Origin: a virus
Strand: one strand, 5' to 3'
Virus record (IMG/VR): IMGVR_UViG_3300017728_000025
Coordinates: 1 to 42,339 of that record
Length of the DNA stretch: 42,339 nucleotides
The position numbers and the translations under genes were made by a program. Under the pieces are notes generated by a model. That model made no database searches. It saw only the letters and a list, made by a program, of their open reading frames with translations, and was not told the origin of the DNA. Within the stretch, counting starts at the first letter, position 1; each line of letters opens with the position of its first letter. Of the stretch, positions 23,401 through 42,339 are shown one piece after another.

Positions 23401-26400
23401 TCCCTATTCAGTTGTACAGGAAAACGCAGTACTTACAACATTAGATCACGGTTCAATGACCCTCAACAATTCATTAATTAATATTAATAATGTAAACTCT
23501 CCAGAATCTATAAAAGAAGAATTTAATAGACAAATGGATTTGAGAAGAGGATTAATTGACGACAACGGCTTGACAATTCCAATGCTTAATAACATAGAAT
23601 GTAGTGAAAAAGTATATGCAGGAGTTCCCTCTACAGAAGTACAGGGTTCAGGTCCTTATGTACCGAGATCTCCTAATATGGAAGGTTTAGAACTTAAAGG
23701 TGTGATGCCTTTTGCTACAGAAGACGATTTAAAATATGGATTCCCAGGGGAAAATATAGATGACGTTGATATGATCACTGATCATAGAGCGAGGCCCGGC
23801 GATTGGCCACCATTTGGATTAAGAAATCCAAAAATTCCAGGTAAGAATACAGGTACGGTGCCATCAAATACACAAATTCCATTATACGATATTAAAGGCA
23901 GTGGCAAAAATAGACGTAGAGCAGACTATATTGGGGTTCCTATACTTGATCCTACTAAAGCATTTGCGGCTTTAGATGTTAAACAATGTGAAATTTGTGC
24001 ACCTGCACCGCCCCCAGTATCATCAAGTGTATCAAATGCTAATGGTAAAAGATATATTAATAAAAATTACGGCGGAACTATTACAGTAAGTGCTTCAGGC
24101 AATGGTAAAGGTAAAAGACCATGGCAAGGAACTTACTCAGGATATTATAAAACCACTGGACCTAAAAGAGGACAAGTTTCACAATTCGGTGGTAGTAAAC
24201 ACATGCCAGCAGATGCATTATTAGGCGCAATAACATGGGCTGATAATGGAAGTAGAAATACATTTAGTTTAAGTTGTACGTTTAGTGAAGCAGGAACTTT
24301 CTATGTACATGCATATTACTCTGCAAAAAATACCGGGGGATCGGCCTCAATTAGCATAAGTGGTGCGGCAAGTGGTAGTACTTCTCCAAAGCACTTAGGA
24401 AAAACAGATTCCAATTTTAGTGGTCCTGGTAGTGTAATACCGTTTACCGTAACAGCAGGACAAACAGTAACAATAAACGGAGTAGCACAATGGGGCAGTA
24501 ATCACTGGAACTCTGTTGGATTCCATTTAAGTACAAGAGCAGGTTCGTTAAGTACAACAGCAACAATAGAAGATCCTGCAACATCAACACCTACAGAAAC
24601 TGCAAATACTACTACAGGATCTTCCTTAGTACAAACTGAGTTTATAGAACAGTCAACAAGAGAATGGAAGAAAGGAAATGCTGGAAAAGACGATGAATGG
24701 TTGTTCAATCCTGGTGCAAGTGGAATAATAGAAATACTATTTGACATGTATAGCGGTGCAGACGGATTAGAAGTTTATCAAGGAGACCAAGTTACACAAT
24801 CATCCTTAATATCATCAACTCAACCACAAAATTTAAGTGTTCTATCAGAAGCAGAAAAAAGTGAAATATTAACAAATGCTAGAAAACCAGGTGCAGGACA
24901 AAATACTGGACAATCGGGTGTAATAAGAAATTATATAGAAAGTTCTATATCAGCACCAAATAATACAGGTGTAAAATACGGTGGTGCCTTAAGATTTAAT
25001 TTTAATAAAACTTCAGGCGACTATATAAAAATTAAAGTATATAAATCAAGTAGTGTTTATAGATTTGTATTAAAATACCCTAAAGTAGGCCCTAATATTC
25101 CTAATCCAGGAGTAAATCCGACCACAACAGGAGCATGTGATACAGCAAGTGACGGAAATACAACTGTCACTGGCAACAGTTTACCACAAACACCAATAAA
25201 TACACCAGTAGGTGGCGGTAGTAATACCGGAGGCGGAAACACTGGTGGTGGAAACACTGGTGGTGGTACTACTGGCGGCGGAGCCGGTGGCGGCGGTAGA
25301 CGTGGCGGCGGTGGCGGCGGAGGCGGCGGTGGCGGTGCCGTAAGAAGAGTTCAAGCACAAGCAAATAAAACGTATGGGCCTGTTTATACACCACCTCCTG
25401 TTGAAAAATTCCCTCAACCTTCACCTATAACACCTTATAAACCGGGATTCCCTATTGCTCCGATATCACCTTTACCTGTACAGGTGCCTTTCACTCCATT
25501 TATTACACCTAGTATAGTAGGAGGCGGAAATTTAATAACATCTAGTTGGCAAAAGGGCATAAAAAATATTAGAGCTGGCGGAAATAATCCTGGCGCATTT
25601 TTTAGTGCTAATTTTGGTGATGTAGGTTTGCCTAGTTTAGCAGGTTACAGATTTATACCAAATGTTTTAAGAAAAACAACAAAAATTACAAAAGCAAACA
25701 ACATTGGAAGGTTTATACCATTAGAAGGTAACCAGTATGTGAATACAACTATGCAAAAAGTAACCGGTGGTAAGAAAATACCATTGGCAACACCACTTGC
25801 AGAGAAGGTACCGTTTAAACCTAGTCCTTTAAGAGCAATAGACGTCAAAGAGTACAACTATAACTTTATAACAAAGTTAAATAATCCGTATTTTACAAAA
25901 TCTGGTAATGCTATTAGTTTCCAAGCACAAAAAATAGGTGGAGATCTTGTTTTACCTGACGGAAGTAGTATAAGAAATATACTTGGAGACGCAAGTGGTA
26001 TAAATGCAGACAACGTATTAATAAGATACCCAGGAAACGAATTAGTTGACTTTGTAAACCGAGGAGATAATCCTCCAACATACGATTATCTACCAGGTGA
26101 TACAACTATTCCAGACGAATTAGGACAACCTGATGTAGATAATATAGATTTCAATAGAGGAGGCGGATTCTCTATACAACCTTTACTAAGGACTCCAGAA
26201 GGTAATTACATTCCTGGTGGCCCACAAGTAGGATGTCACTTAACACAGCCTACACCTGGATTCAACATACCAATGGATAACATGACTGGTATAAAACCAG
26301 GCGATGAACTTATTATTAATAATAGAAAATATGTTTTCCCAGGCAGTGACCCTAAAGTTGTAAGAAATACTTTAATGTGCGGACCTGCTGGTAGCGGAAT

Positions 26401-29400
26401 CGAAGTTAAAGACACTAAAGTTAATGGTAAAGATGCTATAAGAATTAGTAGTTGTAGTGGTGCACCAATTATTATTAGAGATGGTTGTGCAGGCGGTGTT
26501 TATAAGGAAGTATTAGACTTTCATGTTGTAAGAGGTTTCGATCAAAGTGTAGTAGACACTAGTAACACATTAGTTTTACCAGCGATTTTCGGTACAGCAA
26601 ATACTGTTACAACAGCAAGTTATAATACTTACGGCCCACAGGGAGATAACACAGGTGTTGCTACAAGTGGTGGTTCAGATATAACAAGTGAGCAAGGCGT
26701 AGGTGCAATATTATCAAGTAGTTCAGTTAGTAAATCAACTGGAGGCAGTGGTTATGTTGTAGGAGATAGATTAAGACTAGTTGGAGGTACTCCAATAGCA
26801 GATCCTTACGGTAGTGTTACAGAAATCTGTATAGATGCACCAGGAGCCGGATATTCTGATACTGCAAATGTTGTAGTTTATATAGGAGACGGTAATACAC
26901 CTGGTAGTGGTGCTAAAGCAGGTAGTGTTATATTAGATGATGAAGGCGGAATTAAAACTATTCTAATGGTAACCGGCGGTGAAGGCTACGATGTAACTAA
27001 ACCACCTAAAGTAAGAATTATAGATTTAAATGACACTGGTTTAGTAATACCAGCATCGGCACATGCAAAAGTGGCTTCAGGAGATAGTGTACCTCCTAGA
27101 GTAGCAAAATTTGTTGTTACTAGTATAGATGCTGTAGGAACAATTACAAGTTTACAAATTATTGATAGGGGTATTTATAAAGTATTCCCAAGTGATTTAA
27201 CAATGGGTATTCCTTTAGAGTACGACTATGTTAATCTAGGAGATGAAACAGGTACAGATGCAGATGGTAATTTCTTCCAAGGAACAGGGTTAGGACAATT
27301 TGATCCATTAGCAGACGGCAAACGTTTAGGCTCACCAGGAGGATACGATCCGATTAATGACACATTAGGTGGCGGGTCAGGTGCTAGGGTGTTCTTAACA
27401 TCAAGAGAGATACCAGATTGCTCAGAAAAAGGAAATGCAAGAAGTCAGTTAGGTTTACCAGAAAGAGTTACAGAAATAAATATACCAGAAGATATTACAG
27501 CATGTTTTAATAACAATTTAGCAGGTCCTGGATATGATGAAGACTTATATTTAGAAACAGAGCCAGTAAACGATTGTATTACAGCAATTAAAATTAGACA
27601 TCCAGGTTTCGATGGTGTAAGATTAGATGAAAATGTTCCAGGATTCTTAGATAGAATAGGATTACCTAGAGGTGATTACAACCAAGACATGCTATGTATG
27701 GTATCAACAGTAATTACAAAATCTTTTGAACAAGATAGAGACAATAGTGTAGGTACAACAACTGGATTTGATATATTAGATGTAGACGGTTACGGTACAT
27801 CTGGATTTGCAACATCAGAAGCAACAACATTAGAGATTAATTGTGTAGATAATTTAAGAACAGACCCTAATAGTTTATTTGGTGTAGCAGGAAATACAGG
27901 CGGAGACGACTCGGCAAATAATGTTGGACTATCATTTACAACTGATTTATATCAATATGAATTAAGAAGATTAGATGGCGGCCCTGTTAATACGGTTAAC
28001 CTACAACAAAACTGTGATGTTTATTATTTAGAAAGTCATAGGTTTGCAAACACATCTGTTATAAGCAGTCACACTCATATAGATGATGGTAATGTATCTA
28101 TTGCAAATTATGATAAAGTTTGGATAGATGAATATGTTGATTCTGCTAATAGTATAAATGGCTGGGCATATATAGAAAACAATAGTCTAAAAAGATATCA
28201 TGAAAGTTTAGTTGATTCTAAATTTGTAAATAATACTATTATTTACGATTCAGAAACAGGTGAAAAAGATTGGGACCTTTACGAATATGATCCTTTTAAA
28301 GGTGTTATACCAGGATTTATAGACAAAGAGATAGACTTTGTAAGCGAAAGTGATCCGGTAGTTTATAATCAAGCAAGAACAAGATTTGGTAGCAAGGACG
28401 TTGGTAAAGTCTGGTGGGATACAAGTACAATAAGATACAGATGGTACGAACAAGGCTCTTCTAATAGAGAACGTTGGTTAAATTGGGGTAAGACATTCCC
28501 TGGTAGTAGTGTAACTTTATACGAATGGGTAGAAAGTAAATCACTACCTCAATCATATATTGGCACAGGCACGCCTAAAAATGCATTAGACTATGTAACA
28601 GAAACATTTAAAGATCCTGTAACAGGAGTAAACCAAACATGTTATTATTACTGGGTACAAAACAAACAAGAATTAGATAATCATGTTGCAACAGATTTAA
28701 ATAGACAATATTCAACATTTGAACTTGCAAGATTGTTAGCAGATCCAGTAGGTCAAGGATTGCCTTTGATTAGTTTTGTTAGTGATACATCGTTTGTACT
28801 TACAAATGCTAGTTCAATAATAAAAGAAGAAGATCAAAATTTACAGATTAATTTAAGTAGAAACTTAAATCCAATTGGGCAGAAACATGATGCTTGGAAA
28901 CTTCTCAGAGAAGGCGACAATAATAGTGTGATCCCAGAAGATTTAGGAAACAAATTAATAGATAGTTTATGTGGTAATGATGCTAGTGGTAAAAGTGTAC
29001 CAGACCCATTACTAAGTGAAGTAGAAAAATATGGTGTTGCATTTAGACCTAGACAATCTATGTTTAAAAATGTAAAAGATGCAAGAAGAGAACTAGCATA
29101 TAGTTTAAATGAAATACTTGCAGACATTAAATTAAATAGTGAATTCGTAAATTGGGACAAAGATTTACCAGCAAGTAGAACTTATATAGAAACAGTAAAT
29201 TGGTTTGACACTATAAGAGTAGACGCATTTAATAATAAAAAAATTAGATACGATAGTTCTTATAAACCTATTTTAAATGTTGGTAGTATTTCTGAACTTA
29301 CTGCTATTACAGGCTCTATCAAAGACGGTGCAATTATACAAGTACAGCCTAATGTAACAAGTAGATACGAACTTTGGAAATATGTTTCTAAGACAAATAC

Positions 29401-31153: not shown

Positions 31154-31173
31154 ATATGTACTTAACTGATAGT

Positions 31174-31181
31174 GATAAATA
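31174..31181 (+). promoter_or_regulatory. late promoter (GATAAATA) after the giant gene
   Basis: GATAAATA lies in the gap after the giant gene. With T4 geometry +1 is 31187, the A of the second of two adjacent ATG codons (31184, 31187), so a leaderless mRNA is predicted. Confidence 0.75.
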
Positions 31182-31186
31182 GTATG

Positions 31187-31834
31187 ATGGAAGAGAGCAA
31201 AGACAAAATGAAAGAGCAAAAAGACTTAAAACCTAATGAACATGCCGGTGTAAATATGAACGGTCATATATTAATCAGAGATAAAGAAACCGGTGAGGAA
31301 TTAGTAAACAAAAGAAATGCTATTCACTATGGTAACATGGCTTACATAGTAGCGAATGCTCTTAACGGAACAGACAATGCAAGAGTGTATTACATGGGAT
31401 TTGGAAACGGTGGTACTAGTGTAGATACTACAGGTAAAATCATATACAAATCTCCTAGAGTAAGTGAAGCATTCCAATCTTCTGCAAGTTTATATAGTAG
31501 AACATACAAAAAGATTGTTGGTGGCTCCGGTGATTCAACAAACCAAATAGAAGTCATAACAGGAACATCTTATTCTGATATTAAGGTTACAGCAACTTTA
31601 AGTTATTCAGAGCCAGCAGACCAAGATCTTTTCGATACAAGTACAGATAACAACGGCTCTTATGTTTTTGATGAATTAGGACTTTTCAGTTACCCAACAG
31701 ATCCTTCGCCTAGCGACGGCAGTGACCCTATTGATACTAGTAGAATGTTGACTCATGTTGTATTTCATCCTGTACAAAAAGCACAGAATAGGGTTATAGA
31801 AATCATATATACTGTCAGAGTACAATTAAGTTAG
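31187..31834 (+). CDS. virion structural protein, conserved in marine T4-like phages
   Basis: 215 aa from ATG 31187, the codon that matches the predicted transcript start; ATG 31184 or GTG 31172 would lengthen it by 1 or 5 residues. The N-terminal 30 residues are charged and helical. The core starts GHILIRDKETGEELVNKRNA then IHYGNMAYIVANAL, MGFGNGGTSV, and ends with strands (HVVFHPVQKAQNRVIEIIYT). This pattern is familiar from structural proteins of cyanophages but has no T4 name that I can assign. Lying between the giant baseplate gene and the tail fibre, it may join fibres to the baseplate, like T4 gp9; that is inference from position only. Confidence 0.6.
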   Translation: MEESKDKMKEQKDLKPNEHAGVNMNGHILIRDKETGEELVNKRNAIHYGNMAYIVANALNGTDNARVYYMGFGNGGTSVDTTGKIIYKSPRVSEAFQSSASLYSRTYKKIVGGSGDSTNQIEVITGTSYSDIKVTATLSYSEPADQDLFDTSTDNNGSYVFDELGLFSYPTDPSPSDGSDPIDTSRMLTHVVFHPVQKAQNRVIEIIYTVRVQLS

Positions 31835-31843
31835 GAGTAGTAA

Positions 31844-33994
31844 GTGGCATATAGTATAACGAATACAGACGGAACAGAAGTAATTATTATTGCTGATCAG
31901 TCTATTGATTCTACTTTATCTTTAAATTTAATAGGCCCTAACGCAACTAATTACGGCGATGATATAGCCAGAAATACTGTAAGGCATTTAGAAAATTTTG
32001 CAGGGACAACAGCACCTAATCCAACAAAAAAATTAATTGGACAACTTTGGTATGATAAAAACGACAATATTCTAAGAGCATGGAACGGTACTGTTTGGCA
32101 AAAACTAAGACCACAAATATTAAATACCGAGCCTACAGGAACTGGATTAGAAGCATCTAGTTCAGGCGATTTATATTTTAATAGTGTAAACAATCAATCA
32201 TATATTCATGATGGTACATCATGGAAATTACAAAATTATGCAGGTGAAGTCTCCAGCAAATTTAAGTCTGTAGACGCAATAGGCGAACCACAGACAGCAT
32301 ATGGTTCAAAATTTAAAACAATATATTTAAAAGATGCTGGAAATGTTTCTAGAGCAGTAGCGGCACTTGTATCAGTAAACGATAGCACAAACGCATTATA
32401 TAAAGGCGTAACAAACGGTGAAACAGTAATGGCTGTATTCACAGATGAGGCGTTTACACTTGGTAATTTTGATTCTGAAGCAGAAGGTATAGATGTAAAT
32501 TACTATCCTGAATTTGCAGGTACAGGTGGTATTGGACTTAACCTAGTTAAAGGTATGAACTTGAGAGCAGATTATTCTCAAACATCAGTACCATTAGCAG
32601 ATTTGGCCACTAGAGCAACAACAGCCAATGCATTATACAGTTCAACAACAGGCACAAATATAGAATCTGACTTTAGTGGTGGTATAGGTAGTACATATAT
32701 TTTTAATAGTAAATTAGATATTATACCAGCAGATGATAACAGTAGAAAATTAGGTGACGCAACTAAAATATTTGCACAAACATATACCAATGAATTACAC
32801 TTAGGTAAAGACAGTACATCAGCAGGTAAAATATTGTTTGAAAATGCTGATATCCAAATAGGTGCAGATGTAGATGATGCCTCGCCGGCAGTCAATGGTT
32901 ATCCAGCAAGTCACATTTATACAAAAGATTTAACAGTTTCAGGTAACGTTAGTTTTGATACAGGCGTACAAAACTTAGGTTCGCAAAGTACACCTTTAGA
33001 AAACTTGTATGCTAATACAACGATAGTATTAGGTGGTGCAAGTGGTGATATTACACTTAACGGATTTGGTTTTCCTCCAGCAAGTACTCCTAGTGATAAC
33101 CAAGCATTAACATATGATAGTGGTACAGGTAATATAGATTTTACTAGTGTTGCATTAAGTTCAACACAAATGATTGCTGGTGCCGGTCTCACAGGCGGTG
33201 GTGATTTATCTGCAAGTAGAACATTTAATGTTGTAGGTACTGACGATATAATTGTTACAGATAACCTAGTTGGTGTTAGGACATCTGCCGATAACCAAGT
33301 TAATTATATTGTAAAACGTAATGATGCAGGTGACTTTACAGGTGGTACTATTACCGCTGAAACCAGTTTAGTAACACCAATATTAACAGTTAATGGTAAT
33401 GCGGCAGTAACAAATTTATCAGCAACACAAATTGTTCAAGCAGAACATTTATCCTCAACAGACGATGCCACAATCGCTGATACATTAACAGCAGGAACAT
33501 TAACAGATGGAACACTAAGTATTAGCAGTGGTGCTATAACAAGTGGCACAACAGCATCATTTAGTGGAAATGTTACAGCATCATACTTTGTAGGTACAGC
33601 GACACAGGCACAATATGCAGATTTGGCAGAAATATATGAAGCAGATGCAGATTATGAACCAGGTACAGTAGTCAAAATAGGCGGTGAAAAAGAAATTACA
33701 CAAACAGAAAGTCACGCAGATACAGATGTATTTGGTGTGATATCAACTAATCCAGCATACTTAATGAACAGTGAAGCAGAAGGATTAGCAGTAGCATTAA
33801 CAGGTAGAGTACCAGTTAAGGTTTTAGGAAAAATTAAAAAAGGTGACAGACTTATATCAAGTGACGAACCAGGATATGCATGGGCCTATACAGATAGCGA
33901 TAGTTACGACACTAGAGCAGTAATAGGTAGATCCTTACAAGATAAGGAAGACGGCGGCTTAGGAATAGTAGAAGTAGTCATAGGTGTAAAATAG
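31844..33994 (+). CDS. tail fibre protein
   Basis: 716 aa from GTG 31844, 6 bases after AGGAG (31833-31837), which overlaps the previous stop. The N-terminus (about 1-95) has the attachment-type sequence seen in marine myovirus fibres: GPNATNYGDDIARNTVRHLENF, then GQLWYDKNDNILRAWNGTVWQ. The middle has shaft-like strands with repeated LGDATKIFAQTYTNELHLG and LGSQSTPLENLYANTTIVLG units. The C-terminus (about 590-716) carries AQYADLAEIYEADADYEPG, then GVISTNPAYLMNS and a GRVPVKVLGKIKKGD hairpin, the common end domain of such fibres. No S74 self-cleaving chaperone motif is evident. Probably contacts the host surface. The next late promoter begins inside its stop codon. Confidence 0.8.
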   Translation: MAYSITNTDGTEVIIIADQSIDSTLSLNLIGPNATNYGDDIARNTVRHLENFAGTTAPNPTKKLIGQLWYDKNDNILRAWNGTVWQKLRPQILNTEPTGTGLEASSSGDLYFNSVNNQSYIHDGTSWKLQNYAGEVSSKFKSVDAIGEPQTAYGSKFKTIYLKDAGNVSRAVAALVSVNDSTNALYKGVTNGETVMAVFTDEAFTLGNFDSEAEGIDVNYYPEFAGTGGIGLNLVKGMNLRADYSQTSVPLADLATRATTANALYSSTTGTNIESDFSGGIGSTYIFNSKLDIIPADDNSRKLGDATKIFAQTYTNELHLGKDSTSAGKILFENADIQIGADVDDASPAVNGYPASHIYTKDLTVSGNVSFDTGVQNLGSQSTPLENLYANTTIVLGGASGDITLNGFGFPPASTPSDNQALTYDSGTGNIDFTSVALSSTQMIAGAGLTGGGDLSASRTFNVVGTDDIIVTDNLVGVRTSADNQVNYIVKRNDAGDFTGGTITAETSLVTPILTVNGNAAVTNLSATQIVQAEHLSSTDDATIADTLTAGTLTDGTLSISSGAITSGTTASFSGNVTASYFVGTATQAQYADLAEIYEADADYEPGTVVKIGGEKEITQTESHADTDVFGVISTNPAYLMNSEAEGLAVALTGRVPVKVLGKIKKGDRLISSDEPGYAWAYTDSDSYDTRAVIGRSLQDKEDGGLGIVEVVIGVK

Positions 33995-34001
33995 ATAAAT
34001 A
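33994..34001 (+). promoter_or_regulatory. late promoter (GATAAATA) for the second fibre-like gene
   Basis: GATAAATA shares its first base with the tail fibre stop codon (TAG 33992-33994). The predicted start near 34007 gives a leader of about 29 bases containing AGGAGA (34025-34030) just before ATG 34036. Confidence 0.75.
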
Positions 34002-34035
34002 TACACTATATAATAGCAATTATTAGGAGAAATAG

Positions 34036-35055
34036 ATGGCATCAGGATCAAGTTATACAGTAAGTGGCGGAACCACTATGACCGGTGTTGTATCAGGAGA
34101 TGTTATTGATGATGCAGATTTCAATAACATGAGAACAAATGTTAATGCCCTTATGGGTACAGCACAGGATGTTACTTTAGGCACATATACTGCGGCTTCA
34201 ACTTATGGTTGGGGACAAGGTGGTGCAGGTGTAAATGCCGCTAGTGCAGGTGGACTTGTTTATGCCGATAACGCCACAGGCGGATTTAAAAGATTACAGG
34301 ATGATGTACAGGCAATGTGTGCATTTTTAGGTGTATCAGTTAGAACAGGTGTTGGATCAGATGTTGCAGACGGTGGATCAATTACTGCCGCAACTTGGAC
34401 TAATACAATGCTAAACATTCAAGATTGTTGGAATGCTAGATTCTCAGTTGCAAGTGATACAGGTGCAACCGGAGATAGTTCAACATTTACCAGTACATGG
34501 AATACTAGTTTATCAGCAGAAGCAACATTTACGTTTGCAAATGAAGGAGCATGTAGAGGCTACTTTAATGGTGGTGGTAAAGTAGGATTTACCTCAACAA
34601 GAGCAAGTGGTAGTTCAACTACACAGAATACTAACTGGACCGATACTCTAAGTGCTTTAGGAAACTATCAATTGAAACATGATACATCCTATGCGGCTTC
34701 AGGTACAAATTCAGGATTAGGGTTTTACGAATTAACTACAAGTTATCAAACACTTTGGACTAAATTTGGTTCAGGTAGTTATGCAAGTAACTTCTTTAGA
34801 GTTGAAGGTAAAATAAATTCAACAACTAACCCAACAGTTATCACACTTAAAGCAACATGGAGTGACCCTCACGCAGAAGGAGCCGGCTCTTTAGGACCAG
34901 ACGGACAAGCAGGAACAGGCGACGAAGCATTCGGTAATGACTTTATTGATGGAACACTTACATTAAATGGAAATACATTTACACCAGATGCAAGTGGTTC
35001 AGGATTTAGTTTCTCAGCACCTACAGTAAGTTGTGGATCTATTAGCGGAACATAA
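34036..35055 (+). CDS. fibre-like virion protein, unknown
   Basis: 339 aa, rich in Ser, Thr, Gly and Ala, with no long hydrophobic segment. The N-terminal 110 residues include a helical part (DVIDDADFNNMRTNVNALMG, FKRLQDDVQAMCAFLG) followed by WNARFSVAS. The rest is strand-rich: FTFANEGACRGYFNGGGKVG, then FYELTTSYQTLWTKF, and a C-terminal end in SCGSISGT. Composition, own late promoter, and position right after the tail fibre suggest an exposed adhesin or short fibre. The CRGYFNGGGKVGF pattern recurs in marine phage structural proteins. No T4 counterpart recognised. A strong terminator follows directly. Confidence 0.6.
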   Translation: MASGSSYTVSGGTTMTGVVSGDVIDDADFNNMRTNVNALMGTAQDVTLGTYTAASTYGWGQGGAGVNAASAGGLVYADNATGGFKRLQDDVQAMCAFLGVSVRTGVGSDVADGGSITAATWTNTMLNIQDCWNARFSVASDTGATGDSSTFTSTWNTSLSAEATFTFANEGACRGYFNGGGKVGFTSTRASGSSTTQNTNWTDTLSALGNYQLKHDTSYAASGTNSGLGFYELTTSYQTLWTKFGSGSYASNFFRVEGKINSTTNPTVITLKATWSDPHAEGAGSLGPDGQAGTGDEAFGNDFIDGTLTLNGNTFTPDASGSGFSFSAPTVSCGSISGT

Positions 35056-35073
35056 TAAAAACTCTCGAGTTAG

Positions 35074-35104
35074 AAAGCCAGTTCATAGTAACTGGCTTTT
35101 TTTT
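35074..35104 (+). terminator. intrinsic terminator ending the tail/fibre block
   Basis: A perfect 10-bp stem, AAAGCCAGTT (35074-35083) with AACTGGCTTT (35090-35099), loop CATAGT, followed by a further T run to 35104. It is 18 bases after the stop of the fibre-like gene and just ahead of the next late promoter, so it separates the structural block from the accessory cassette. Confidence 0.92.
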
Positions 35105-35108
35105 GACT

Positions 35109-35116
35109 GGTAAATA
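35109..35116 (+). promoter_or_regulatory. late-type promoter (GGTAAATA) for the accessory cassette
   Basis: GGTAAATA, a variant of the GATAAATA box, 4 bases after the terminator T run. With T4 geometry +1 is 35122, the A of the next ATG, again predicting a leaderless mRNA. No ribosome site precedes that ATG. Confidence 0.65.
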
Positions 35117-35121
35117 GTAGC

Positions 35122-35481
35122 ATGAGTACAAGACTAACAAAGGCTCTGGAGTTTGCAAACTATCGCACAACGATTAACAATCAACAGGCACAACTAAAAG
35201 CAAAAACACAAAACCTATTAAGTTACAGTATTAATGGCGGTACATTTACTATTGATGTGCCATTAATTACCTTCTGTAAGCAACTTATGGACGAGGGACA
35301 AACTGAAGTGGTACTCTTAGACATTTACAATAATCCAATTAGAGTAGATGTAACAAAGTTTTATGAGGAAATACATAGTAGATATTTTGAAGTAACAAAC
35401 GATTATTATGTGGAATATGAAAAACTTCGTAAAGCAAGAAAAGTACACAAAGTTTTGGACCTAGATGAAAAAGGAAAGTAA
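35122..35481 (+). CDS. conserved small protein of marine T4-like phages, unknown function
   Basis: 119 aa. It begins LTKALEFANYRTTINNQQ, then has a short central strand part (YSINGGTFTIDVPLITFCK), QTEVVLLDIYNNPIRVDVTKF, and a helical end with NDYYVEYEKLRKARKVHKVL. I recognise this type as a small protein repeatedly found near tail fibre genes in cyanophages, without a known role. No signal peptide or membrane span. First gene of the cassette after the terminator; its start is probably leaderless. It overlaps the next gene by 17 bases, so the two are co-expressed. Confidence 0.75.
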   Translation: MSTRLTKALEFANYRTTINNQQAQLKAKTQNLLSYSINGGTFTIDVPLITFCKQLMDEGQTEVVLLDIYNNPIRVDVTKFYEEIHSRYFEVTNDYYVEYEKLRKARKVHKVLDLDEKGK

Positions 35482-36364
35482 TTCACGCGGTGTAATAATG
35501 TTTGCACATAACAATACGGAAATAGATTATTTTCGTCTTGCAGTTGTGAATGCTTTACTAGTACAAAAGAATCTAGGTATAAAAAATGTTACAGTAGTAA
35601 CTGACCCTCATAGTCTTAAACAAGGCGAAAAAACTTTAGGTAAAAGATTAATTAAGAAAGCAATTAACAATATAATTGTAATAGAAAAAGATAAAAAATT
35701 TAAAGCATTAAATCAAAGACTTTATAAAGACACCAGTCATACTACTAAGTACTTGCCTTTTTATAATGTTAATAGATGTGATGCTTACCACTTATCCCCA
35801 TATGATGAGACATTACTAATAGATGTAGACTATTTAATTTTAAGTGATACATTAAATCATTGTTGGGGACATAACAACGAACTTATGATGAATTGGAAAT
35901 ACCAAGACATCATGTACGAAAGAAAAGACCCATCGTTAGCAAGGCTAAACGACATGGGTATTACCATGTATTGGGCGACTGTGGTTTATTTCCGCAAAAC
36001 AGAATATGTAGAAAGTTTCTTTAACATAGTTAGTCATGTTAAAAACAATCCACAGTTCTATAAAGACTTATATCAATGGCAAGGTACTCTATACAGAAAC
36101 GATTATAGTTTCTCAATTGCCGCACATATGATGTCTGGTTTTGTAGACAAAGGTATACCTCAGTTGCCTACTACCCTTTATAAAAGTTTTGATACAGACG
36201 ACATACATAGTGCTATAGATGAGAACACTATTGTCATGTACTTAGAGAAGCCCAGAAGCCCTGGAGACTTCATGCTAACTAAATGGCAGGATATTGACTT
36301 ACATATAATGAATAAATGGGCAATAAACAGAGTAAGTGAGGAATTGTTAGAATATGCAAGATAA
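35465..36364 (+). CDS. glycosyltransferase-like protein (GT-A type fold) 1
   Basis: 299 aa. After SRGVIMFAHNNTEIDYFRLA it has a Rossmann-like start, then LSPYDETLLIDVDYLI with a DxD pair (D120, D122) at the end of a strand, the metal and nucleotide-sugar site of GT-A enzymes. Later comes ITMYWATVVYFRKTEY and a C-terminal helix part. The gene product at 38289 is a paralogue: it shares SRG-x5-A-x-NN near the start and SPYDET-x4-D-x-D. A transferase acting on a sugar donor is likely, but donor and acceptor are unknown and catalysis is not shown. Start ATG 35465 is kept because the paralogue begins at the same point. Overlaps both neighbours. Confidence 0.65.
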   Translation: MKKESNSRGVIMFAHNNTEIDYFRLAVVNALLVQKNLGIKNVTVVTDPHSLKQGEKTLGKRLIKKAINNIIVIEKDKKFKALNQRLYKDTSHTTKYLPFYNVNRCDAYHLSPYDETLLIDVDYLILSDTLNHCWGHNNELMMNWKYQDIMYERKDPSLARLNDMGITMYWATVVYFRKTEYVESFFNIVSHVKNNPQFYKDLYQWQGTLYRNDYSFSIAAHMMSGFVDKGIPQLPTTLYKSFDTDDIHSAIDENTIVMYLEKPRSPGDFMLTKWQDIDLHIMNKWAINRVSEELLEYAR

Positions 36365-37340
36365 AGAAAAGTTCTACAATGCTTCGCCTATGAAATATAT
36401 ATTATTGAGCGACGTAATAAATCACCCTGATCATCAAGCAGGTAGACTTCTACATATTAAAGAGTCTACAGCAGATATGGTTTTAAAATTTTTCAGATCA
36501 AATATAAAAAATTTAAAGTACCAGTTCAATACTAAAGCAAAAACAATAAAGATCAATTTAGAAGAAGATGATTACTTTAATTGTTTTGTAGTATCTAAAA
36601 TACATTGGTTAATGCATGATTTTAAAGTAAATGGTGTAAGTTTCGCACCACAAGGGTTTTTACAAAAAACAATAGATGGAGATCAATTTGCGGCAGAAAT
36701 ACATCCAGGTACATATAGATATCATGCAATGATACTAGCAGAAATGTATAATGAATATATCATTGTTGCTGATAAAGAAAATATTTTTCCTGATCATAAA
36801 GTTTTATCTTTTGAAGAACACAATGAACTTGTTAATAAAGGATTCATAAGAGAAAGAAAAGGCTCTTATTCTGAAGTGGAAGTTTCAAACAAAGGAGAAG
36901 ATGTCTTTACTTTACATGAAGCAGGAAATCATCACGATTGGAATATTTTAAAACAATCAGAAGAATTAATTAAAATGTTCACAAATTTAACAGTTTATAC
37001 AGATGACCAAGAGGGTGTAGAAAAATTAAATCTAATCAAAGAACAAAATATAGATGTTAAAATAACAGATAATGGTTATGCTACAATTCCCCATAAAGAA
37101 GAATGGAAAGGTATATCTGTTTATATACCAAAATCTGATTCCATGGAAGATCATTTTACACTTGACATGATATTAGATTTAGATATCGATACTGATATAG
37201 TATATCATATTGACACCGGAGTAACTATTATAAATAATAGTTCAGTAGGATGTAAAAGACTGATACTAGAAATAATACAAGAATCTAAACCTGAATATTT
37301 AGATAATTTTTTATGGGCAAGGAGAGTAGTCAGAAAATGA
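36354..37340 (+). CDS. unknown protein of the accessory cassette
   Basis: 328 aa; family not recognised. It is rich in charged and aromatic residues, with no signal peptide or membrane span. Notable parts: ILLSDVINHPDHQAGRLLHI near the start, FAAEIHPGTYRYHAMILAEM (about 115-134), FTLHEAGNHHDWNI (about 183-196) and a C-terminal YHIDTGVTIINNS. The conserved-looking HPGTYRYHAM and His-rich stretches could mark a ligand or metal site, but this is not certain. GAGGAA (36338-36343) lies 10 bases before ATG 36354, inside the upstream gene. Its TGA stop overlaps the next ATG as ATGA. Position between a GT-like and a 2OG-oxygenase-like gene suggests a shared pathway. Confidence 0.6.
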   Translation: MQDKEKFYNASPMKYILLSDVINHPDHQAGRLLHIKESTADMVLKFFRSNIKNLKYQFNTKAKTIKINLEEDDYFNCFVVSKIHWLMHDFKVNGVSFAPQGFLQKTIDGDQFAAEIHPGTYRYHAMILAEMYNEYIIVADKENIFPDHKVLSFEEHNELVNKGFIRERKGSYSEVEVSNKGEDVFTLHEAGNHHDWNILKQSEELIKMFTNLTVYTDDQEGVEKLNLIKEQNIDVKITDNGYATIPHKEEWKGISVYIPKSDSMEDHFTLDMILDLDIDTDIVYHIDTGVTIINNSSVGCKRLILEIIQESKPEYLDNFLWARRVVRK

Positions 37341-37894
37341 AGTATTCATCAAAACCGTTTCCTTGGAAACATTATATATTAGAAGATTTCTTTGAGCAAG
37401 ACGATTTTGAAAATATTAAAAATTTAAAAATTAATAATGCAGATTACTCAACTATTACAGGTTTTAGAGATGTTATAGGCGGCAGGACATTCTTAAATAA
37501 TTCCTTTGTAGAAGAAAATCCAGAATTTAAAAAAGCCGCAGACTGGTTAAACAGGCGAGATTATTATGAAGATTGTTTTAAAACAGATTTAAGCAATACA
37601 TATATGAGAGCAGAAATTATACATGACAGATATCCGTTTTTTCATGATATACATTTAGATTTACCTTGCAAAAATTTAACAACAATCATTAATATAGATA
37701 AAGAGGACGAAAAAAATCTAGCAACAGATTTATACCACACAAAGGAACATCACGTAAAAAGATTAGACTGGGTACCTAACGGAGGACTAGCATTTAAGAT
37801 TACAGATTCTGCTTGGCACGGATTTGCACCTACAGAATATAAAGGCATAAGAAAAATTATGATTATTAATTATGTTAATATAGATGAATGGTGA
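37337..37894 (+). CDS. 2OG-Fe(II) oxygenase-like protein
   Basis: 185 aa from ATG 37337, picked because it overlaps the previous stop as ATGA and GGAGAG lies at 37321-37326. It opens PFPWKHYILEDFFEQDDFEN, typical for short prolyl-4-hydroxylase-like proteins. Likely iron ligands are His106 and Asp108 (HLD in FFHDIHLDL) with distal His161 in DSAWHGFAP, and Arg172 in GIRKIMIINYV as the 2-oxoglutarate anchor. The order HxD...H...R at these distances fits an active dioxygenase. Such enzymes are frequent in marine T4-like phages with unknown substrates, either protein side chains, sugars or bases. Confidence 0.8.
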   Translation: MKYSSKPFPWKHYILEDFFEQDDFENIKNLKINNADYSTITGFRDVIGGRTFLNNSFVEENPEFKKAADWLNRRDYYEDCFKTDLSNTYMRAEIIHDRYPFFHDIHLDLPCKNLTTIINIDKEDEKNLATDLYHTKEHHVKRLDWVPNGGLAFKITDSAWHGFAPTEYKGIRKIMIINYVNIDEW

Positions 37895-37916
37895 GATAAG
37901 GATCAATTATATATTA

Positions 37917-38138
37917 ATGAGTAAAATTGTTTCACCATGTATTGATAGATGTTTCACAGATGGTAATAAATGTCCAAGTTGTGGCCGTACCAATGACGAG
38001 GTACAAGAATGGTTTTATGCAGATGAGAAAAGAAAGAAAGAAATTTTAGAAGAATGTGCAAAAAGGTTAGATCCTGTAGCATATGATTATTGGGAAGAAA
38101 TGTATGAGTATAAAAGGCAAGAGCAAGAAGGCTCCTAG
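37917..38138 (+). CDS. DUF1289-like small cysteine protein
   Basis: 73 aa from ATG 37917 (a longer frame starts at 37884 but adds residues before the family start). The sequence SPCIDRCFTDGNKCPSCGRT then EVQEWFYAD, with a basic helix after it, is the DUF1289 pattern. Four cysteines (8, 12, 19, 22) could bind zinc or an Fe-S cluster; the family is annotated as Fe-S but this is unproven. No clear ribosome site nearby. It sits between a 2OG-oxygenase-like gene and small cassette genes, and ends in an overlap with the next one. Confidence 0.82.
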   Translation: MSKIVSPCIDRCFTDGNKCPSCGRTNDEVQEWFYADEKRKKEILEECAKRLDPVAYDYWEEMYEYKRQEQEGS

Positions 38139-38292
38139 TTTAGGAGACAAAATAGAGCATACTTGTAGACTCAATGGAAAGTTTGAGGGTAAAGTTATAG
38201 AACTATTGGCTATGCAATTCATATATGAAACTAAAGAAGGTCACCATAGGCATTGCCTTTTTAGAGAAGATTGGAAATATAAAACAAAATGA
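38104..38292 (+). CDS. small conserved-type protein, unknown function
   Basis: 62 aa from ATG 38104; a start at 38083 is possible but less likely because it lies deeper in the previous gene. The sequence is basic, with SLGDKIEHTCRLNGKFEGKV and MQFIYETKEGHHRHCLFRED, which looks like a small SH3-type beta barrel, as in many tiny phage proteins. Overlaps the DUF1289 gene and the next gene (ATGA), so it is co-translated. No function assigned. Confidence 0.65.
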   Translation: MSIKGKSKKAPSLGDKIEHTCRLNGKFEGKVIELLAMQFIYETKEGHHRHCLFREDWKYKTK

Positions 38293-39155
38293 GTAGAGGG
38301 TATATAGTAATAGCACAAAACAATGATACTGTTGACTATCTAGAGCAGGCGTATGCACTTGCACTCAATTTAAAACTAACACAGACTACTGTAAGCAATC
38401 TAACAGTATGTGTTGATACTAAAACTAAAAAATTTATAAAAGCAAAACATAAAAAAGTATTTGATAGTATAGTGGACATACCTTGGCAGGACGATGCCAA
38501 AGACGCAGAATGGAAGATTAATAATAAATGGAAGTATTACTATATGTCTCCTTATGATGAAACTGTAATACTTGATACTGATATGATATTCCCTACAGAC
38601 GTAAGTCATTGGTGGGACATAATGGCACAAAGAGATGTTTGGGCAACTACAAAAGTAAGAACATATAGAGGCGAGGTAGTTAGTAGTAATTTTTATAGAA
38701 AATATTTTGCGGCAAACGAATTACCTAATGTATATACTGCTTTCTTTTATTTTAAGAAAAGTGAAATCGCAAGTGAATTATTTGCAATGGTAGAAATTAT
38801 ATTTCAACATTGGCAAAGAATGTTTTTCAAATATATGCCTAAAGGTAAACCAGATTGGTTAAGCGGAGACGTTGCTTTTGCACTTGCTATGCAGATTTTA
38901 GGAATAGAGCATGAATGTACTAGAGAAAATATTGATGAAGTGCCAACGTTTGTACACATGAAAAGCCATGTGCAAAATATACCAGATACAAGAATAAGTG
39001 AAATATGGACTGAAACATTACCAACTTATTATAATACATACAAAGACTTTAAGATAGGAAATTTTCAGCAACTCTATCCTTTCCATTATGTAGAAAAGGA
39101 TTGGATAAGTAATACTATGATAAAGCAAATGGAACAAGATTATGGCATTAAGTGA
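38289..39155 (+). CDS. glycosyltransferase-like protein (GT-A type fold) 2
   Basis: 288 aa, paralogue of the product at 35465: both start SRG, have ANN/QNN about residue 10, and share SPYDET before a strand that ends in D-x-D (here D96-T-D98, LDTDMIF). Later parts include YTAFFYFKKSEIASELFAM and WLSGDVAFALAMQILGIEHE, consistent with the acceptor half of a GT-A protein. A conserved-looking SGD and FVHMKSHVQN follow. Function as a sugar transferase is inferred from fold-level motifs only. The start overlaps the previous stop as ATGA and the end overlaps the next gene by 14 bases. Part of the late cassette. Confidence 0.68.
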   Translation: MSRGYIVIAQNNDTVDYLEQAYALALNLKLTQTTVSNLTVCVDTKTKKFIKAKHKKVFDSIVDIPWQDDAKDAEWKINNKWKYYYMSPYDETVILDTDMIFPTDVSHWWDIMAQRDVWATTKVRTYRGEVVSSNFYRKYFAANELPNVYTAFFYFKKSEIASELFAMVEIIFQHWQRMFFKYMPKGKPDWLSGDVAFALAMQILGIEHECTRENIDEVPTFVHMKSHVQNIPDTRISEIWTETLPTYYNTYKDFKIGNFQQLYPFHYVEKDWISNTMIKQMEQDYGIK

Positions 39156-39795
39156 AGCAGAAAAAAGACGTAGGAGATTTTTAAAATCTAAAAAAGAGGC
39201 CGGCGGTGATATAGAGTCTTTACAAGCAAAAATGTTTGATAGAGATTTTTCTGTAAACTTTGATAAAGAGGGAAATATTCTAGGCTTTTCTCAGGAAAAA
39301 ATAGTTAAAAAGAAAGGTACATTTTTAGAAACATTTAAAAGAGAGCAAATTGAAATATTAAAAGGTAAAAATACTAATTTATATAAAGTAGTTCAAGATC
39401 CAAATATAGATACAATTTTTAGTATTCAATTAAAACCTGTAGAAAGTGTCTTTGTAAGAACAGAACAAAGTTTTGTAAGTGTAATAGAACATGGTAAAAA
39501 GACAGGTGCAGATATATTAGTCTATTTCGAAGAAGATCAATTTATTGTTGAAATCACAAACAAGATAAAAAAGAAATATAAAGATATAGAACCAAAACTA
39601 GCAAATATAAATGGCGGTAAGATTCTAAAATTTTATTTTACTAGCATACGTGATCCACATTTTTTAGTCCATAATATTAATATATCTTTAGAAAAATTAT
39701 TAACAAGTACAAAGATATCAACTAAAGTTCCTAAAAAATTGAATCAATGTAGTGTATATACCCTAAAATTATTTGATAAATATGTGCGTACTTAA
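39142..39795 (+). CDS. unknown protein, basic N-terminus
   Basis: 217 aa; not recognised. It begins with a very basic helix, SEAEKRRRRFLKSKKEAGGD, followed by mixed strands: VVQDPNIDTIFSIQLKPVES, VSVIEHGKKTGADILVYFEE, then IVEITNKIKKKYKDIEPKL. The basic N-terminus could contact nucleic acid or membrane, without proof. No membrane span or cysteine cluster. It overlaps the GT-like gene upstream by 14 bases. A late-type promoter lies in its last codons. Confidence 0.6.
   Translation: MALSEAEKRRRRFLKSKKEAGGDIESLQAKMFDRDFSVNFDKEGNILGFSQEKIVKKKGTFLETFKREQIEILKGKNTNLYKVVQDPNIDTIFSIQLKPVESVFVRTEQSFVSVIEHGKKTGADILVYFEEDQFIVEITNKIKKKYKDIEPKLANINGGKILKFYFTSIRDPHFLVHNINISLEKLLTSTKISTKVPKKLNQCSVYTLKLFDKYVRT
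39775..39782 (+). promoter_or_regulatory. late promoter (GATAAATA) for the last cassette unit
   Basis: GATAAATA lies in the final codons of the 39142 gene. The predicted start near 39788 gives a leader of about 29 bases with AGGA (39805-39808) ahead of ATG 39817. Confidence 0.65.
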
Positions 39796-39816
39796 AAAAT
39801 ACACAGGACGACACAT

Positions 39817-40815
39817 ATGGCAAAAATTGATGTTACAGAACTAGACATATTCTATATTTCATACGATGAACCAAATGCTGAAGAGCATTGGGCAGATCTA
39901 TTAAATAAAGTACCGTGGGCAAAACGTGTACATGGTGTAAAAGGCTTTGACGCCGCACACAAGGAATGTGCAAATCAATCAGAAACAGAACGTTTTATCA
40001 CAGTAGACGGTGATAATATTGTTATGGATGACTTCTTTGAACAAGTATTAGACGTACCTGACACAGACCATGACGGCAATAACATAGCAGAAAGTATTTT
40101 TAGTTGGAATGCTAAAAACATTCTTAACGGATTAGTATATGGTAACGGTGGACTAAAATGTTGGCCAACAGAATATACTAAAACAATCAATACACATGAA
40201 GCCGCAACAGACGGTGAGGGTATGGAGTTTTGTTGGAAACTAAATTACATACAACTCAACGACACGTTTTCAGAAGTACATCAAACTGCTTCTCCTTTCC
40301 AAGCCTTTAGAGCAGGATTTAGAGAAGGTGTTAAGATGAGTTTAGATCAAGGTGATAGAGTTTCGCCCGATGACTTTAAAGAAAAGATTTGGTATGGTAA
40401 TTATAACAGGCTAAATGTTTGGTGTAATATTGGTTCAGATGTTGACAATGGTTTATGGGCAATGTACGGTGCTAGACTAGGTTGTGATATGACTGTACTA
40501 AGTGATTGGGATACAAATTTAATTTCTGATTATGATTGGTTTAAAGACTTTTTTGAAAATTCTGTATTGCCTCGTTTTCCAGGAGATGAAGTATGTAAGT
40601 ATACAAAAGTTTCTTGGAATCCTGAGATGGTAGAAATTGCTATAAAAGACTTAGGTGTAAAATTAAACGAAAGCATAAATTCTATGATGTTGTTTGATCC
40701 TAATCCTAATATGTGTAAATTTTTTAAAGCAACTTACGTCAACCCTAGAAGATGGGGAGCGATGATAAGAGAAACACAAATACAAGAATTACTAGAAAAA
40801 GGGTTAATACAATAA
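39817..40815 (+). CDS. glycosyltransferase-like protein 3
   Basis: 332 aa. It starts with ELDIFYISYDEPNAEEHWAD and AKRVHGVKGFDAAHKECANQ, then ERFITVDGDNIVMDDFFEQ with a DGD pair (D64, D66) at a strand end, the look of a GT-A nucleotide-sugar site. SPFQAFRAGFREGVKMSL follows in the centre, and a helical C-terminal part with FKATYVNPRRWGAMI. It differs from the two other GT-like proteins of the cassette and is of a type often called hypothetical in marine phages. Function inferred. ATG 39817 follows AGGA by 8 bases. The radical SAM gene begins 3 bases after its stop. Confidence 0.65.
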   Translation: MAKIDVTELDIFYISYDEPNAEEHWADLLNKVPWAKRVHGVKGFDAAHKECANQSETERFITVDGDNIVMDDFFEQVLDVPDTDHDGNNIAESIFSWNAKNILNGLVYGNGGLKCWPTEYTKTINTHEAATDGEGMEFCWKLNYIQLNDTFSEVHQTASPFQAFRAGFREGVKMSLDQGDRVSPDDFKEKIWYGNYNRLNVWCNIGSDVDNGLWAMYGARLGCDMTVLSDWDTNLISDYDWFKDFFENSVLPRFPGDEVCKYTKVSWNPEMVEIAIKDLGVKLNESINSMMLFDPNPNMCKFFKATYVNPRRWGAMIRETQIQELLEKGLIQ

Positions 40816-40818
40816 TAA

Positions 40819-42339
40819 GTGAGCAACTACGACCAGGCCGCTGATAAGGCTAAAGAACAACTGGACTCTATCAGTCCAACAATGTGTTATGCAAAATGGA
40901 CACAGGTATCCATGCATCTAACAAATGGTAAAACACATAGTTGCTATCATCCTCCAACACATGATATAGACGTTGAGGAACTAAAAGTAAACCCTTCAGC
41001 ACTACATAATACAACTGAAAAGAAAGAGCAACGTGCTCAAATGTTAGCAGGTGAGCGACCAGAAGGGTGTAGTTACTGTTGGCGTATAGAAGATGTTGGC
41101 GGTAGAAGTGATAGAGTTTATAGGAGTGGCGAGTACTGGGCACAAAATGCCAGGGAAGAAATAGCAGAAGCAGGTGCTGACGGAAACATAAATCCCAGAT
41201 ATGTTGAAGTAAACTTTAATCAAGCATGTAATTTTAAATGTAGTTATTGTAGTCCACATTTAAGCACTACCTGGGAAAAAGAAGTCAAGGAACATGGCCC
41301 GTATAATATTATACAAGGCGAGCATAATAATTTAGACAGTTTAAGTAAACAGCGATTACTACCACAAAAATTAGCACAAAACGAAAATCCATACGTTGAA
41401 GCATTTTGGAAATGGTGGCCTGAGTTATATAAAAACCTAGAAGTTTTTCGTATGACAGGTGGTGAACCATTAATGGATGTAAACACATTTAAAGTTTTAG
41501 ACTATGTGTACAAACACCCTAATGCCTGGTTGGAGATGTCTATGACATCGAACATGGTACCACCTAAACCTATCTTAATGGATATGTTTATAGAGAAACT
41601 ACAAAGATTAGAAGAGATACAAATTTGGGAAGACCCAGAAAAGTTTAATCCAAACTCTGGGAATAACTGGTATGTAGCACCAGCATGTAAGAACTTTGCC
41701 ACGTTTGTAAGTGTAGATGGTTACGGTGAACAAGCAGAGTATATGCGTAGCGGTATGGATTTTTCAGTGCTACAGAAAAATGTAAAACGAATTTTAAAAG
41801 AAACTGATAATAGTACTATAACATTTATTAATACGTTCAATGTACTAAGTCTTACAAGTTTACGTGACTATTTACAATGGATATTAGACTTGCGAGACGA
41901 GTATGCTAAAGACAGACAAGGAATAAAATATATTCCTATTCCAGATAATGGAGATCACAAACACCCTGATTATGAAGTAAAACCTAAGCAAAGAATATGG
42001 TTTGATATACCTTTACTTAGAGCACCACTGTGGCAATGTATACAAATAATGCCTGACTATTATCAGAGTTATTTAGAAGAAGCAATCGCATTCATGGAAA
42101 TGAATCAAGCAGATGAAGTAAATATAGACTATAGAGGTTTCAAAGATTTTGAAATAGACAAAGTAAGACGTAATCTAGAATGGATGAAAGCAGGTTCTAG
42201 TATGGATAAGGACGAGCTACTTAAAGCAAGAGCAAATTTTTATAAATTTTTTATGCAACATGACGAAAGACGTGATACAGATTTTTTGTCTACTTTTCCA
42301 GAAATGGAAGACTGGTGGAATATTTGTAAAGAAGCAGAG
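40819..42339 (+). CDS. radical SAM enzyme, twitch-domain type, C-terminus cut
   Basis: 507 codons from GTG 40819 stay open to the window end, so the C-terminus is missing. GTG is preferred over ATG 40882 because SPTMCYAKWTQVSMHL, typical of the family start, begins before that ATG. The 4Fe-4S site is CNFKCSYC (C137, C141, C144). RMTGGEPLMD is the SAM-binding GGE block, and SNMVPPKP follows. A second Cys pair, CSYC, lies near residue 84 before the main site. Family members occur in marine T4-like phages with no assigned product. It is probably translated after the GT-like gene (TAATAAGTG junction) from the late promoter at 39775. Confidence 0.88.
   Translation, partial: MSNYDQAADKAKEQLDSISPTMCYAKWTQVSMHLTNGKTHSCYHPPTHDIDVEELKVNPSALHNTTEKKEQRAQMLAGERPEGCSYCWRIEDVGGRSDRVYRSGEYWAQNAREEIAEAGADGNINPRYVEVNFNQACNFKCSYCSPHLSTTWEKEVKEHGPYNIIQGEHNNLDSLSKQRLLPQKLAQNENPYVEAFWKWWPELYKNLEVFRMTGGEPLMDVNTFKVLDYVYKHPNAWLEMSMTSNMVPPKPILMDMFIEKLQRLEEIQIWEDPEKFNPNSGNNWYVAPACKNFATFVSVDGYGEQAEYMRSGMDFSVLQKNVKRILKETDNSTITFINTFNVLSLTSLRDYLQWILDLRDEYAKDRQGIKYIPIPDNGDHKHPDYEVKPKQRIWFDIPLLRAPLWQCIQIMPDYYQSYLEEAIAFMEMNQADEVNIDYRGFKDFEIDKVRRNLEWMKAGSSMDKDELLKARANFYKFFMQHDERRDTDFLSTFPEMEDWWNICKEAE

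Follow-up and report, generated by a model that had tools for sequence, protein, structure and literature searches.

To our knowledge, glycosylation of phage virions is known from few systems, which usually involve one or two transferases. The virion proteins of mycobacteriophages bear glycans (Freeman et al. 2023, via PMC12619734), which, as far as they are summarised in that source, concern the capsid and tail tube of actinobacterial phages and come without a radical SAM array. Chlorovirus PBCV-1 encodes sugar-nucleotide and glycosyltransferase machinery of its own, partly independent of the host and acting on a virion protein, and the locus studied here resembles it in what its genes predict; PBCV-1 differs in having a eukaryotic alga as host and the capsid protein as target, and in lacking radical SAM enzymes (PMC9614988). 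Among T4-like phages, a 2020 study of pelagimyophages reported that their host recognition cluster contains cassettes of glycosyltransferases (mostly GT8) and radical SAM genes (PMC7029224). A T4-like genome of 183 kb from the environment, in which 12 genes are of the radical SAM type, had been reported in 2017; the portions of that paper drawn on here discuss it in terms of Fe-S metabolism and make no mention of a glycosyltransferase or fibre setting (PMC5332604). The Schizotequatrovirus isolates K566 and K575, which are T4-like Vibrio phages, carry several radical SAM genes of ~25% identity, but in a region that PMC12028318 names an anti-defence island and not behind a fibre gene of the type described below (f4).

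The present locus shares with the host recognition cluster of pelagimyophages and cyanomyophages (PMC7029224) a T4-like structural region, tail fibres, GT8 enzymes, UDP-glucose dehydrogenase and radical SAM genes. That cluster is located from VrlC to gp14, with tail fibres; the cassette analysed here follows the baseplate wedge protein phrog_10646 and the fibre genes, and a downstream gp14 was not identified in the relatives. Whereas PMC7029224 stresses a non-syntenic island and a role in the host O-chain, the genes f4, A119, GT1, GT2, U217 and GT3 form a fixed block here, with membrane proteins nearly absent. An earlier reading of this DNA from the sequence only had stated that it knew of no system described with this set. 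This is wrong in part, given the published cassettes and the genome with 12 radical SAM genes; what we did not find described in the literature is the fixed f4-linked block, together with a radical SAM expansion that these phages share with Bdellovibrionota.

A fixed, co-inherited block behind a fibre-like gene

The window, that is, the whole 42,339-nt stretch of viral DNA that was analysed, contains the start of the module. All features given here are on the + strand, and the end of the window at 42339 falls inside the first radical SAM gene. Upstream of the cassette, f10 (31172..31834) encodes a conserved phage protein 5' of the fibre genes (phrog_11259, E 6.8e-59), which is syntenic in most A119 loci, and f3 (31844..33994) encodes a tail-fibre-like virion protein whose C-terminus matches phrog_19602, tail fiber protein (E 1.1e-12). 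The following gene, f4 (34036..35055), encodes a Ser/Thr/Gly-rich protein with 26% S+T, the highest S/T content among the measured window proteins; it is reciprocally linked to A119 and is the proposed glycosylation substrate. Profile searches returned no PHROG match and no PDB relative for f4, which we call fibre-like from its position and composition only.

Between this last fibre-like ORF and the cassette there is a strong intrinsic terminator (35074..35104), AAAGCCAGTT-CATAGT-AACTGGCTTT followed by a T run, with a 10-bp perfect stem and a 6-nt loop. It is kept in near relatives, where the stem has changed on both sides, and is absent from distant relatives. In the clade of the window the terminator separates f4 from the cassette, a counterpoint to a fibre-directed function; it also weakens the earlier claim that the cassette is expressed together with the tail fibres, and joint expression was no longer taken as an established fact. 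The T4 late promoter motif TATAAATA had 4 matches, below chance, and the sigma-70 promoter scan gave matches below the shuffle expectation.

The cassette ORFs are closely packed, overlapping by 11-28 nt or lying 3-150 nt apart, in agreement with the gene content and location first described. A119 (35122..35481) is a core member of 119 aa with an alignment of homologues; it has no Pfam match, only sub-threshold PHROG and NCBIfam matches, and nothing significant in the PDB profile search. GT1 (35465..36364; glycogenin profile, E 1.4e-6) and GT2 (38289..39155; AF2 pLDDT 94; glycogenin by Foldseek, E 5.6e-8) belong to one GT8-like family, and the predicted structure of GT2 is matched over most of its length (VIA Z 15.7, 216 residues aligned). 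The family carries the DxD metal site and C-terminal H...K of GT8 enzymes, with D98 present in 45/45 members, H266 in 44/45 and K270 in 42/45. From these residues and folds, GT1 and GT2 are predicted to be paralogous GT8-type glycosyltransferases. U217 (39142..39795), a core protein of 217 aa, gave nothing significant in profile searches against solved structures.

GT3 (39817..40815; AF2 pLDDT 87) belongs to a separate family, which upholds the view of two paralogous transferases and a different one. Its N-terminal half is GT-A-like (VIA Z 9.9 over 140 residues, residues 7-156), its C-terminal half is helical, and D64 and D66 are invariant in its homologues. The fold matches include the S-glycosyltransferases SunS and ThuS and a PBCV-1 enzyme, and MobA, IspD and other nucleotidylyltransferases score as high as the transferases; GT3 is a probable GT-A-fold glycosyltransferase whose fold match also fits a nucleotidylyltransferase.

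The linkage between these genes was tested from three starting points, namely relatives of the radical SAM enzyme, of A119 and of f4. In the relatives the order is f4, A119, GT1, GT2, U217, GT3, and in most cases 3-9 N_Twi radical SAM paralogues come next in tandem. Among A119 loci with sufficient flank, f4 lies at most three genes upstream in 76/76 and a gene of the GT1/GT2 family lies downstream in 75/75. Within 8 kb 3' of A119, U217 was present in all loci with that much downstream sequence (49/49), GT3 in 48/49 and radical SAM genes in 44/49. The searches based on f4 recover the same block, and the f4 loci with downstream sequence carry A119. The order from f4 to GT3 is constant across the independently found loci with enough flank, which span 11 f4 clusters at 50% identity and in which A119 and f4 homologues reach down to ~20% identity. 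Distances correlate between f4 and GT1 (0.92) and between f4 and the first radical SAM protein (0.74), values to which shared descent also contributes. These genes are a fixed, co-inherited block.

A DNA-level search of 30000-42339 against the phage collection gave no match, and tblastn of the radical SAM protein, GT2, GT3 variants and A119 against phages gave none or very weak ones. GT3 has no match among ~50,700 sequenced phage records, and the block itself is widespread in environmental viral contigs.

The insertion between GT1 and GT2

Four ORFs occupy the interval between GT1 and GT2 in the window. U328 (36354..37340) is followed by a 2OG-Fe(II)-oxygenase-like protein of 193 aa (37313..37894), a Cys-rich small DUF1289 protein (37884..38138; PF06945, 45 bits against a cut-off of 27) and the small ORF s69 (38083..38292), which has homologues in 5 loci. 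For the 2OG protein, the IMG/VR scan returned five related loci; its HxD...H...R motif is kept (H114xD116, H169 and R180 invariant in 6 homologues), and its profile comparison gave no Pfam match, while in the PDB one putative hydroxylase came up weakly (E 0.051). The motif agrees with the probable oxygenase first proposed, and the Pfam score bears out the DUF1289 protein.

Their place in the system is another matter, as the 2OG, DUF1289 and U328 genes were found in 5/44 GT1-GT2 intervals, the others varying widely and containing an aldolase, an SGNH hydrolase or nothing. They are a clade-specific insertion, for which an unstructured collection of auxiliary genes remains the best view, and the 2OG and DUF1289 genes were ruled out as core members. 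Co-occurrence in relatives, which the sequence-only reading had named as its own test, holds for the glycosyltransferases and the radical SAM gene; the 2OG and DUF1289 genes do not belong to the conserved set. Its single cassette needs correction: the window ends within the first radical SAM gene, so that an array of the kind usual in relatives would not have been visible to it. Its hydroxylation plus glycosylation route is left unsupported by so rare an insertion.

Possible targets of the cassette

We give about even chances to the following explanation, taken as a whole: the block belongs to T4-like marine and freshwater phages, is appended to f4, the distal fibre gene, and encodes soluble enzymes by which a fibre protein of the virion is glycosylated and radical SAM enzymes by which either the glycan or the protein is tailored; both the target and the chemistry are what we infer. 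A Ser/Thr-rich fibre protein, f4 and/or f3, would receive a short glycan from GT1, GT2 and GT3 in the cytoplasm, either ahead of tail assembly or while it proceeds, and A119 and U217 would act as chaperone or adaptor. Tailoring of the sugars would follow, the radical SAM enzymes carrying out dehydrogenation, epimerisation or deoxygenation or, less likely, acting on the fibre protein, and the 2OG, DUF1289 and U328 proteins may add an optional, clade-specific tailoring step in the phage of the window. The cassettes of relatives add NeuB, UDP-glucose dehydrogenase, NAD epimerase, carbamoyltransferase, class II aldolase and other carbohydrate enzymes. The obligate linkage to f4 favours a virion target, one of the two kinds suggested from the outset.

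A possible but doubtful alternative is that the cassette remodels a host surface glycan, the O-chain or similar, late in infection, so as to exclude other phages or stop re-adsorption of the progeny. This was proposed for the pelagimyophage clusters (PMC7029224) and is consistent with GT8 enzymes being mainly LPS enzymes and with NeuB, UDP-glucose dehydrogenase and epimerases being typical O-antigen genes, but obligate coupling to a single fibre gene is unexpected for a role at the host surface. Membrane components are also nearly absent: predicted TM segments are lacking in 527/535 cassette proteins, two are present in 3/535, and three or more in 0/535, while the same script finds proteins with 4-8 TM segments in bacterial loci. 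The multi-TM flippase, polymerase or Gtr protein of a gtr-type seroconversion or O-antigen export cluster was thus found in 0/535. A cassette free of membrane proteins could nonetheless modify lipid-linked glycans of the host at the cytosolic face, the side from which LgtC acts.

A RiPP-like maturation is rather improbable; in it, the side chains or backbone of a fibre or of a small peptide would be modified by the radical SAM enzymes, A119 would provide recognition, and the transferases would glycosylate the residues so modified. Peptides are often the substrates of SPASM/twitch radical SAM enzymes, the array is positioned behind a fibre gene, and SunS and ThuS are among the fold matches of GT3; however, no precursor-peptide gene was recognised, the genes found alongside encode sugar enzymes and not the transporters or proteases of RiPP pathways, and A119 has no RRE-like match in Pfam, PHROG, NCBIfam or PDB profiles. 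Hypermodification of the phage DNA by the 2OG oxygenase, radical SAM enzymes and transferases, as protection from nucleases, is very improbable: some phages do hypermodify DNA with 2OG oxygenases and glycosyltransferases, but the cassette is located in the fibre region, its 2OG gene is accessory (5/44), and the folds of GT1-GT3 are GT-A-like, while the T4 DNA glucosyltransferases are GT-B. We consider just as remote, and for the core already disfavoured, an unstructured gene collection with no joint function in a hypervariable island, since what lies between GT1 and GT2 and beyond GT3 is highly variable but the order from f4 to GT3 is fixed in all loci with enough flank.

If fibre glycosylation is correct, ocean phages probably use this block to give their fibres an unusual coat of sugars, and the receptor-binding surface of many of them would be chemically unlike its gene sequence, which would affect the prediction of host range from sequence.

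Radical SAM arrays in phages and predatory bacteria

The first radical SAM gene, R0 (40819..42339), is cut by the contig end, its ORF being just a few residues shorter than the 510-aa homologue in locus L004; in relatives it usually opens a tandem array. The assignment as a radical SAM enzyme agrees with NF033640 (N_Twi_rSAM; 324 bits against a cut-off of 170), with the CxxxCxxC motif (C137xxxC141xxC144) and with an extra N-terminal Cys cluster (C23, C42, C84 and C87), all of these cysteines being invariant in 16 homologues. Profile searches of R0 against solved structures gave nothing significant, and tblastn with the radical SAM protein in the phage collection gave only distant matches, in Vibrio phages.

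NF033640 takes in R0 as well as the members of the array, and such arrays occur both in phages and in predatory bacteria. Should the proposed function hold, the arrays would constitute a large pool of radical chemistry yet to be characterised. The Bdellovibrionota carry N_Twi radical SAM enzymes without f4, A119 or GT1/GT2, which indicates that the role of these enzymes is not specific to phage fibres, and the expansion of the array in predatory bacteria suggests a common problem of attaching to Gram-negative surfaces. As an unlikely, tentative extension, T4-like aquatic phages and Bdellovibrionota may share a radical-SAM tailoring of glycans or glycoproteins, with at most ~20 paralogues in a phage and >30 in a bacterium, which together with GT3-type transferases would decorate structures for attachment to Gram-negative cells, the f4 fibre being the substrate in phages. 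In bacteria too, GT3 is found directly 5' of an N_Twi radical SAM gene (G002 contig 7; L098).

Arrangement of the fibre-linked block

The window (42,339 bases) is a linear virus record from IMG/VR and has a T4-like gene content that includes an SbcD-like nuclease subunit, a late sigma factor, and baseplate wedge and hub proteins. It also encodes a virion structural protein that, at 5568 aa, is one of the largest for phages of this kind; pieces of this ORF (14447-31153) match phrog_10938, virion structural protein. Ten ORFs, all on the + strand, extend from 35122 to the contig end, and a strong terminator (35074-35104) lies between them and f4 (34036-35055), the last fibre-like ORF. The window stops within its first radical SAM gene (40819-42339), while a 92%-identical relative, L004, has five further radical SAM genes past this point, with genes for a NeuB-like synthase and a UDP-glucose dehydrogenase between them.

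An IMG/VR scan with the radical SAM protein, from which the best 80 of 521 matches were taken, gave 79 loci, and clustering of these best-match loci plus the window (80 loci) yielded 356 radical SAM ORFs. Despite highly diverged proteins, phages repeatedly show the order f10-f3-f4 (upstream genes), A119 (119 aa), GT1-GT2 (GT8-like paralogues), U217 (217 aa) and GT3, with several radical SAM genes behind it. A second search was started at A119, so its loci are not conditioned on a radical SAM gene. Among loci with enough flank, f4 lay at most three genes upstream of A119 in 76/76, and a GT1/GT2-family gene lay downstream in 75/75. The 49 A119 loci with 8 kb downstream contained U217 in every case, GT3 in 48 and radical SAM genes in 44, which bears out co-occurrence of glycosyltransferases and radical SAM in relatives, a check named in the sequence-only reading. 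Starting from GT3, 57 of 58 loci had GT1/GT2-type genes within 3.5 kb and 52 had A119, and starting from f4, A119 was found in every locus with downstream sequence; these counts are not independent events, because the A119, GT3 and f4 sets share many contigs and many contigs are related. The f4 proteins form 11 clusters at 50% identity. As far as the searched literature goes, this fixed fibre-linked block is new.

Phage contigs with the f4-A119-GT block are also binned into bacterial MAGs of genome collections (L086-L135, e.g. L091, L095, L101, L108, L111, L125), assigned to Rickettsiales, Pelagibacter, Neomarinimicrobiota, Betaproteobacteria and Verrucomicrobia.

Glycosyltransferase-like proteins and the GT1-GT2 interval

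Clustering places GT1 and GT2 in one family, whose profile (45 sequences) matches glycogenin at E 1.4e-6 and which retains the Asp that binds the metal, together with the C-terminal His and Lys. An AlphaFold2 model (pLDDT 94) gives full-length matches to glycogenin and other GT8 enzymes, and the two paralogous GT-like proteins proposed earlier are upheld. GT3 is a family apart, with invariant D64 and D66 and a model (pLDDT 87) whose N-terminal half is GT-A-like; since nucleotidylyltransferases fit this model as well as glycosyltransferases do, GT3 is only probably a glycosyltransferase. In several phages the far end of the cassette carries GT3-like proteins of 854-1358 aa, composed of repeated degenerate GT3-like units (L139, L144, L027:11524-14088); a methyltransferase gene lies next to them, often together with one for a carbamoyltransferase.

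The DUF1289 protein and the radical SAM enzyme pass curated cut-offs. The 193-aa oxygenase-like protein (2OG) had no family match in a Pfam search, and its six homologues keep H114xD116, H169 and R180. The sequence-only reading had included 2OG and DUF1289 in the set; this does not stand, as the pair of 2OG and U328 (328 aa), with or without DUF1289, occupies just 5 of 44 GT1-GT2 intervals. Of these intervals, 24 are empty and others carry an aldolase or an SGNH hydrolase; 2OG is present in 3 and DUF1289 in 1 of the 49 A119 loci with 8 kb downstream. The interval is a variable insertion site, and the 2OG genes are accessory, outside the core, a status that is new as far as the searched literature goes.

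Virion fibre or host surface

Accessory genes of the relatives encode carbohydrate enzymes (NeuB, UDP-glucose/GDP-mannose dehydrogenase, NAD epimerase, carbamoyltransferase, class II aldolase) and, as judged from their sequences, sulfotransferase-like and amidinotransferase-like proteins. Of 535 proteins encoded from A119 to the last radical SAM gene, 527 lack any predicted TM segment and no protein has more than two; the same TM script detected proteins with 4-8 TM segments in bacterial loci. Within the literature searched, this near absence of membrane components is new. Polysaccharide export or membrane seroconversion systems would need multi-TM proteins. Cytoplasmic glycosylation of a virion fibre is favoured by the near absence of TM proteins, by the obligate link to f4 and by the richness of f4 in S/T, and from the linkage we infer that f4 may be the substrate.

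The host recognition cluster described in PMC7029224 has GT8 enzymes and radical SAM cassettes, and there an action on host glycans is preferred. Soluble glycosyltransferases can also use lipid-linked host glycans as substrates. Glycans on mycobacteriophage virions are described in PMC12619734, citing Freeman et al.

Radical SAM genes in phages and Bdellovibrionota

PMC5332604 reports 12 radical SAM genes in one T4-like genome. Whole-record counts for the N_Twi radical SAM family (NF033640), taken at E up to 1e-3 and including weaker relatives, were 1-21 across 14 phage records and 6-37 across six Bdellovibrionota genomes. The family cut-off was passed by 41 of 144 Bdellovibrionota genomes versus 3 of 200 Pseudomonadota, and by none of 14 control genomes. 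GT3 homologues were present in 5 of 12 genomes carrying this family, in two of them immediately 5' of an N_Twi gene. A GT3-radical SAM pair common to phages and Bdellovibrionota is, to the extent of the literature searched, new, and no link of NF033640 to Bdellovibrio was found in the open-licence literature. In the bacterial set, A119 and GT1/GT2 occurred only on contigs resembling phage contigs that were binned in MAGs.

The Bdellovibrionota genomes with loci L146-L149 (G002 contig 1, G003 contig 275) have up to 37 N_Twi matches, which are clustered; in one cluster, three PP-loop ATPase copies lie beside the radical SAM genes, and the one copy tested matches QueC. Several distant radical SAM genes also occur in an accessory island of cultured Vibrio Schizotequatroviruses (OZ196521.1, 160-180 kb, L136; OZ196514.1, L137), which could serve as a laboratory model.
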